From the NCBI GenBank assembly GCA_025060615.1, contig JANXBS010000017.1, positions 1 to 64,000 on the forward strand: a stretch of DNA of 64,000 bases. The letters are read 5' to 3'. The DNA is from Anaerolineae bacterium (GTDB taxonomy: Bacteria; Chloroflexota; Anaerolineae; DUEN01). Position 1 is the first letter of the stretch; each line of letters opens with the position of its first letter. Below the pieces are notes generated by a model. That model saw only the letters and a list, made by a program, of their open reading frames with translations, did no database searches and was not told where the DNA came from. This document shows positions 25,928-34,823 of this stretch, in pieces. Position numbers and translations under genes: made by a program.

Positions 25928-25956
25928 TTGACACCGCAAAGCCCGTTTGGTATAAT
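25928..25956 (+). promoter_or_regulatory. consensus sigma70 promoter of a small RNA
   Basis: TTGACA (25928-25933), a 17-bp spacer and TATAAT (25951-25956): both hexamers and the spacing are the exact consensus. There is no open reading frame behind it, only a folded transcript that ends in a terminator. Confidence 0.9.
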
Positions 25957-25961
25957 GGCAA

Positions 25962-26180
25962 AGGGAAAGGCATGAAAAGCTTCCTTATCCCTATGATGCC
26001 GTAAGCGAAGTGGGAGCTGAGGCAGGGAGTGTCCATGTGCTGAACTACGGAAACAGAGGGGTAAAATCCCTCTATGAGGTAAAGCATATGGCACACTGAG
26101 GAGAGAACAGGCTGGGAGCCTGAGCTCGTATGGAAGCCCAAAAGCCTCGGTGGAAGCGGATGGCACACCGAGGTTTTTGT
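25962..26180 (+). ncRNA. ssrS: structured small RNA, candidate 6S RNA
   Basis: A transcript of about 218 bases from a consensus promoter to a terminator (CCTCGGTG 26145-26152 with CACCGAGG 26166-26173, then TTTTTG). It can fold into one long rod. GCUUCC (25979-25984) closes on GGAAGC (26132-26137). A central region is largely unpaired, with a small hairpin on its 3' side (CAGGCU 26108-26113 with AGCCUG 26117-26122). A 13-bp stem (26029-26041 with 26083-26096, one bulge) and an apical hairpin (AGAGGG 26055-26060 with CCCUCU 26068-26073) complete it. This layout is that of 6S RNA, which binds the sigma70 polymerase. It is not like tmRNA, RNase P RNA or SRP RNA. A novel small RNA remains possible. 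Confidence 0.6.
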
Positions 26181-26204
26181 TGCTATATGTTATTATGCTA
26201 TAAT
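26177..26204 (+). promoter_or_regulatory. candidate promoter of rpsU
   Basis: TTGTTG (26177-26182), a 16-bp spacer and TATAAT (26199-26204), about 60 bases before rpsU. The -35 box overlaps the T-tract of the small RNA terminator, so the two units are packed end to end. Confidence 0.55.
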
Positions 26205-26265
26205 GGAAACGGACACCAAACGCTATCGTGTAAAAATATCCGGACATAGAAGGAGGTGAGTCCCC

Positions 26266-26466
26266 ATTACAGTTGAGCTGCGACCAGGAGAATCTGCGGA
26301 TAGTCTCCTGAAACGGTTTCGGAAAGCGGTAACAGAAGAGCGGATCCTGAGCACAGTACGCAAAAAGCGCTGGTTCACCCCCAAGAGCGAACTCAGGCGT
26401 CTAAAGCGCAAGAAGGCCATCCGCAAAGCCCGTCGAGCAGCTCGTAAGCGAGCTGAGCTAGAGTAA
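26266..26466 (+). CDS. rpsU: ribosomal protein bS21 with an ATT start codon
   Basis: A 66-residue basic protein of the small ribosomal subunit. The sequence (MTVELRPGESADSLLKRFRK, then KKRWFTPKSELRRLKRKKA) matches bS21 from the first residue on. The codon at the expected start is ATT (26266). A strong AGGAGGTGA (26251-26259) lies at the right distance. In this frame a TGA within that ribosome site closes any upstream extension, and no ATG, GTG or TTG exists at a usable position. ATT starts are known for infC, where IF3 rejects them and thereby regulates translation. infA follows 75 bases downstream. Confidence 0.88.
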   Translation: MTVELRPGESADSLLKRFRKAVTEERILSTVRKKRWFTPKSELRRLKRKKAIRKARRAARKRAELE

Positions 26467-26541: not shown

Positions 26542-26781
26542 ATGGCGAAGACAGAGGAGAAAATCTCGGTTGAGGGCACGATCGTAGAAGCGTTGCCCAA
26601 CGCTACTTTTCGCGTCGAGCTTGACAACGGCCACGAGATCCTGGCCTACCTGTCAGGCAAGATGCGTAGACACTACATTCGGGTTCTCTTGGGCGACCGC
26701 GTGCGGGTCGAGCTTTCACCGTACGATCTTACGCGCGGGCGAATCACATTCCGCTTTAAAACCCCCAGCCGGACGAGCTAA
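26542..26781 (+). CDS. infA: translation initiation factor IF-1
   Basis: A 79-residue OB-fold protein that binds the ribosomal A site during initiation. The family pattern is clear: [20 protein letters not shown], then [20 protein letters not shown], then [20 protein letters not shown]. It is slightly longer than the usual 72 residues because of a short tail. The ATG at 26542 has GAGGA about 12 bases upstream. It is probably co-transcribed with rpsU. Confidence 0.95.
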
Positions 26782-34470: not shown

Positions 34471-34823
34471 AGCTTGATAGCCTGAACGACGATGAACCGG
34501 AAGAGTAGCTGCCGCAACGGGCTTCAGAGAGCCAGGGCAAGGTGCGAGCCTGGTAGCTACGTCGGCAGTGAATGGGCCGGGGAGTTGGGGACCCAAAGGG
34601 CAACCAAGTAGGCTCCTCCGGAGACTCCACCGTTATCTGGGAGCTGGGTATCGGGCAGCTTCCAAGGGGGAGGTTGGCCCTGTACCTGTAGAGTGAGGCT
34701 GGCGATGGGATTTCATCATGCTTCACGATCAGGTTTTTATCTCGATCGCCGGCCTAAGCAGGGTGGCACCGCGGGGAATGTTCATTTATCCTCGTCCCTG
34801 AGTGAAGGGACGAGGATTTTTTT
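34471..34823 (+). promoter_or_regulatory. T-box leader sensing tRNA-Trp
   Basis: Stem I holds the AGAGTAG side of the specifier loop and the AGAGAG and GGTGCGAG apical elements. The specifier TGG (Trp) sits at 34573-34575 directly after GTGAA. The antiterminator core is AGCAGGGTGGCACCGCGG (34757-34774). Its TGGC bulge pairs with a tRNA ending GCCA, which matches the G73 discriminator expected of tRNA-Trp. The terminator is a 10-bp hairpin (34790-34799 with 34806-34815) followed by seven Ts (34817-34823). Uncharged tRNA-Trp should switch on the whole operon, including trpS. Confidence 0.95.

Follow-up and report, generated by a model that had tools for sequence, protein, structure and literature searches.

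In the stretch of DNA analysed here (64,000 nucleotides of contig JANXBS010000017.1 from an Anaerolineae bacterium, in the following the window), the gene rpsU for ribosomal protein bS21 very probably starts with ATT, behind an extended Shine-Dalgarno (SD) sequence (Table 1). The best explanation as a whole, to which we assign a probability of roughly 0.6, is an AUU start combined with a long SD, rendering bS21 output sensitive to initiation factor IF3. A sequence-only reading had proposed the ATT start from a strong SD at the correct distance and an in-frame TGA that excludes upstream starts, and all three points were borne out at the locus. Behind this TGA the codons read GTC CCC ATT ACA GTT GAG CTG CGA, and the stop-to-stop frame (26260-26466) translates to V-P-I-T-V-E-L-R-P-G-E and so on. 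The Ribosomal_S21 profile PF01165 matches it with 48.8 bits (cut-off 27; E 5.6e-13) over domain positions 1-55 of 55, beginning at residue 4 of the frame, one residue past the ATT. From the TGA to the conserved VELRPGE there is no ATG, GTG or TTG, and only GTC and CCC precede the ATT. The distance from AGGAGG to the ATT is 9 nt, a normal SD spacing, and the ATT is the only start codon normally spaced from AAGGAGGTGA. A duplex model gave -18.5 kcal/mol for the SD-antiSD pairing, calculated with the 16S tail of relatives (read in five of the eight genomes searched); 16S was not found in the genome of the window (G000).

Table 1. Features of the rpsU locus in the window.
Feature	Position	Strand	Basis
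rpsU (bS21), 66 codons + TAA	26266..26466	+	PF01165 profile match; single copy
Predicted ATT start codon of rpsU	26266..26268	+	sequence; cross-genome alignment; codon choice
Extended Shine-Dalgarno AAGGAGGTGA	26250..26259	+	10-nt complement to relatives' 16S tail GGATCACCTCCTTTCT
In-frame TGA within the Shine-Dalgarno, shuts the frame 5' of the ATT	26257..26259	+	sequence
rpsU stop TAA	26464-26466	+	sequence
Probable extended -10 element of rpsU TATGCTATAAT	26194..26204	+	read by eye; putative assignment
infA (IF1), ATG start, next gene 3' of rpsU	26542..26781	+	PF01176, E 2.2e-27

Other starts in the window were considered and rejected. Initiation at ATG 26203 with read-through of the TGA is out, since the probable -10 element covers part of this ATG and since each of the three readable genomes of the window's family (f1) has the TGA within its SD. 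The mRNA start predicted from TATGCTATAAT would lie at about 26211, 3' of the same ATG, though the output of a consensus promoter scan did not contain this element. GTC 26260, GTT 26272 and CTG 26278 are out by their SD spacing. The rpsU leader had no credible match in Rfam and did not fold more strongly than shuffled sequences (z -0.42). For comparison, SD energies of other genes in the window were -7.5 kcal/mol for infA and -13.4 kcal/mol for a DksA/TraR-type gene. The genome (73 contigs) holds one copy of rpsU, with a predicted N-terminus of MTVELRPGESADSLLK or TVELRPGESADSLLK when read from the ATT; the corresponding N-terminus in the genus g126 would be MSVELRPGESQESLMR.

The ATT start is strongly supported because the comparison of aligned rpsU starts, suggested as a check by the sequence-only reading, holds across genomes. 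In a sample of 396 genomes of the class, the aligned start is ATT in 28 and ATA in two; these 30 genomes, a lower bound since rpsU was read in only part of the sample, belong to 13 genera in four families (f1, f19, f30 and f38); the remaining families have ATG, GTG or TTG at this position. The ATG or GTG that would have spoken against the ATT was found in none of the three readable genomes of the window's family (a fourth member, G003, gave no rpsU match and is hence unscored). ATT at the same position was also present in the separate public records JAGHDS010000507.1 and CP059258.1, whose bS21 is 82-95% identical, and agreement between separate records rules out a read or assembly error as the source of the ATT. 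Among 25 loci from a named collection, the aligned ATT was detected in these two records and in JASGTU010000132.1, QEUY01000105.1 and JADLFO010000349.1, and the others showed ATG at the aligned site or NTG one codon earlier.

Of 60 relatives searched as whole genomes, 57 had a bS21 protein match, at 67 places including the window, with ATG as start at 26, GTG at 18, TTG at 13, ATT at 7 and CTG at 2 (one unread, in G008; G015 and one copy in G025 were scored as ATG by eye), and ATT in four of the 40 families read. In pattern searches of the class sample, a pattern with fixed ATT matched 22 of the 396 genomes, and one with an open start (A/G/T, T, any) matched 100 genomes at 104 places, of which 13 had ATT and the rest ATG, GTG or TTG save for one GTA; ATC, ATA, GTT and TTT did not occur at these 104 places. 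The single GTA (G177) turned out to be an artefact, with an ATG two codons upstream. Of 20 chosen genomes searched at the protein level, 19 matched, and these supplied two more with ATT (G358 and G388) and two with ATA (G205 and G363). In the phylum, an ATH pattern, whose reach over rpsU outside the class may be limited, matched one of 400 genomes, the window's own. One genome (G056) holds two rpsU copies, one started by ATT (L031) and one by ATG (L227). The best rpsU start at L243 (G037) and L247 (G051:C515) is CTG behind AAGGGGGTGA or AAAGGAGGTGA, a rare start in the same gene family, and L238 (G008) has an in-frame TGA at the second aligned rpsU codon. The sequence-only reading had also pointed to the position of rpsU beside infA; this adjacency is present in the window, but in a motif search only part of the ATT genomes showed infA as a neighbour of rpsU, and infA itself starts with ATG.

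Codon choice and SD position also bear on a reading in which translation in f38 and f30 begins at a GTG inside the SD and the ATT is an ordinary isoleucine codon. Among the 16 loci tested, 10 (those of families f38 and f30) carry such a GTG in frame, three codons ahead of the ATT or ATA, and the interchange of ATT and ATA within one genus would be synonymous if the GTG were the start. However, no SD serves the GTG (-2.5 to -6.6 kcal/mol), in contrast to the ATT or ATA, for which 15 of the 16 loci gave -17.0 to -23.8 kcal/mol (-9.7 in G040). Moreover, a TGA stands at the position of the GTG in the window's family and in f19, the GTG is out of frame in G040, and ATG-type relatives have their ATG exactly at the position of the ATT in the alignment. 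ATC is likewise absent at the site: the first codon of 27 distinct ATT/ATA rpsU genes is ATT in 25 and ATA in two, whereas the internal isoleucine codons of the same genes are ATC 65, ATT 27 and ATA 8. The absence of ATC has a chance of about 1e-6 when 13 genera are treated as independent, which makes the case look too strong, the genera being related and a single genus supplying 15 of the 27 genes. We therefore regard the GTG start as very improbable and retain the ATT.

On an rpoB tree (28 rows, 27 scored; G388, in which no rpoB was found, and the fragmentary G245 are absent), the start changed at least nine times between ATT/ATA and NTG, an approximate count given weakly supported deep branches and the long branch of G040. 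The ATG genome G116 neighbours the ATT/ATA genus g126, and the ATT genome G358 neighbours the ATG genome G255, both with support 100/99. Sister genera thus differ in ATT and ATG, so not every lineage requires the weak start. Such frequent switching (nine changes), together with the GTG, TTG and two CTG starts among rpsU genes, would also suit a simpler explanation, namely that AUU merely sets a fixed low synthesis or drifts neutrally since the start codon hardly matters behind so long an SD. The weak start is nevertheless stable within groups, with ATT in all three readable f1 genomes and ATT or ATA in all 15 genomes of g126, though ATG is one substitution away; ATC starts are absent in the rows read, and ATT was seen at none of the 28 rplT starts read in the class, so that we consider a fixed low rate or drift unlikely. 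Apart from this, open frames of 1279-1334 codons run antisense across rpoB in six genomes (L198, L200, L201, L204, L205 and L207).

The ribosomal protein gene rplT served as control. Of 60 relatives, 57 had a match to it, and 28 of the 30 loci fetched were read, with ATG at 12, GTG at 9 and TTG at 7; no ATT start was detected among these 28, the loci of G000 and G001 being unread. Unlike ATT, GTG and TTG are thus common in the class and as such no sign of special control. For rplT, SD energy averaged about -10.9 kcal/mol (over 24 rows, of which G050, G025 and the second G015 row had been misread, and including a 3 kcal penalty for non-NTG rows), compared to group means of -16.0 to -18.0 kcal/mol for rpsU genes with ATG, GTG, TTG or ATT. 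By predicted pairing energy, an extended SD is a mark of rpsU in the class Anaerolineae, ATT or not, and since the SDs of ATG-type rpsU are equally strong it is not a compensation special to ATT. A scan of the window's own genome for an SD followed by ATH gave 147 sites where the reversed pattern gave 86, and was too noisy for naming further ATT genes.

That rpsU SDs are exceptional throughout the class whatever the start brings in self-regulation by bS21, in which 30S subunits lacking bS21 would start more readily from the extended rpsU SD and the AUU would sharpen this response by barring replete ribosomes from initiation. For Flavobacterium johnsoniae, PMC9976891 reports that rpsU stands out by pairing below -13 kcal/mol and is translated better by ribosomes without bS21; the window's rpsU, with -18.5 kcal/mol, lies below this threshold, although the program used here differs from that of the paper. 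However, the mechanism in F. johnsoniae depends on the 16S tail being sequestered, as happens in Bacteroidia, while Anaerolineae use SDs widely (58%; excerpts of PMC10783764), and in E. coli bS21 aids rather than hinders SD pairing, as stated in part of PMC10931766. In addition, self-regulation alone leaves the ATT unexplained. We therefore regard it as an unlikely main cause, but it is compatible with control by IF3, and both can hold.

For the preferred reading, an AUU start with IF3-sensitive output, the following course is proposed. rpsU would be translated from AUU, and the very long SD-antiSD helix would hold the 30S subunit at the start, where the weak AUU codon-anticodon match would slow the passage of the bound 30S to initiation and allow IF3 to reject it, in the manner of infC. 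The yield of bS21 per mRNA would be low, judging from the presumed start efficiency, and output would most likely rise when IF3 per 30S falls, alongside that of IF3's own AUU-started gene. bS21 output may thus depend on the condition of the initiation machinery, and bS21 and IF3 both act on the 30S platform during initiation. infC was found in all 30 genomes searched, and in 20 of them no NTG codon occurs from the upstream stop to the conserved RxN motif. In all four f1 genomes, including G000, an ATT is the sole candidate among ATT, ATC, ATA and NTG codons (L111, L109, L110 and L113), and gene callers using only ATG, GTG and TTG could misplace the infC start of this family. With infC likewise started by ATT in the genome of the window, discrimination by IF3 is plausible here. 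infC apparently has ATT in ATG-rpsU genomes as well, e.g. G116 and G097; the ATT of infC therefore does not track that of rpsU. In a survey of codon-anticodon pairing (PMC10158994), IF3 accepted nothing but Watson-Crick pairs at the first two bases and was laxer at the third, a leniency that suits ATT and ATA more readily than an exchange in the first two bases. In S. aureus, AUU or AUA behind an extended SD yields about 10% of the AUG output in poor medium (section of PMC13009471), and in Streptomyces IF3 represses the non-canonical start of sigR behind AGGAGGTG (passages of PMC5472188). IF3-dependent control of rpsU is a serious possibility, with chances slightly short of even. More tentatively, several Anaerolineae families may have repeatedly brought the bS21 gene under the IF3 start-codon regulon, with bS21 and IF3 co-tuned by AUU-type starts with strong SDs and the exchange of ATT and ATG acting as an evolutionary switch into and out of this control.

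No description of an ATT-started rpsU was found in the literature searched, which was chiefly freely accessible and covered by title, abstract or passage. To our knowledge, rpsU is the first ribosomal protein gene with an AUU start and a supporting SD, and we know of only few proven bacterial AUU starts, in a factor, an enzyme and small regulators. The rpsU of Anaerolineae joins the known AUU-started, SD-supported genes. The closest is infC of E. coli, B. subtilis and S. aureus, for which the published excerpts describe an AUU or AUA start and autocontrol by IF3, and which shares with rpsU the AUU behind a strong SD and the codon set AUU/AUC/AUA; as the product of rpsU is a ribosomal protein, control by IF3 would putatively act in trans. 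Conserved non-AUG starts directed by an extended SD are likewise reported for Staphylococcus cvfC1 (AUU) and ccpN (AUA), whose products are a small protein of unclear function and a transcription repressor rather than ribosomal proteins (PMC13009471). In the sections available of PMC5472188, Streptomyces sigR also keeps a non-canonical start behind an SD within one group, but its start is GTC and its product a sigma factor. The rpsU of Flavobacteriales is the same gene with an SD of at least nine pairs and autoregulation by bS21; unlike in Anaerolineae, the host ribosomes hide the antiSD, and AUU and Chloroflexi are absent from the main text of PMC9976891. In E. coli pcnB, AUU limits expression (cited in part of PMC1780047), but the product is not a ribosomal component. 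Near relatives with ATT or ATG rpsU offer a natural series for asking if selected genes are controlled in trans by IF3, and which effects bS21 stoichiometry has. In practical terms, gene callers that accept only ATG, GTG and TTG as starts can set the rpsU start wrongly, or miss the gene, in such genomes.

Two further features of the window were detected. A T-box leader (RF00230, 106.7 bits) lies at 34483-34802, and a likely small RNA gene at 25928-26182, just 5' of rpsU. For the latter no credible Rfam match was obtained, and a consensus scan found a perfect TTGACA-17-TATAAT promoter at 25928-25956, followed by a strongly folded stretch of 220 nt (z -5.45) with a stem and T run at its end (about 26180). 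The promoter and the 3' part of this candidate are kept in G002 with 89-90% identity.
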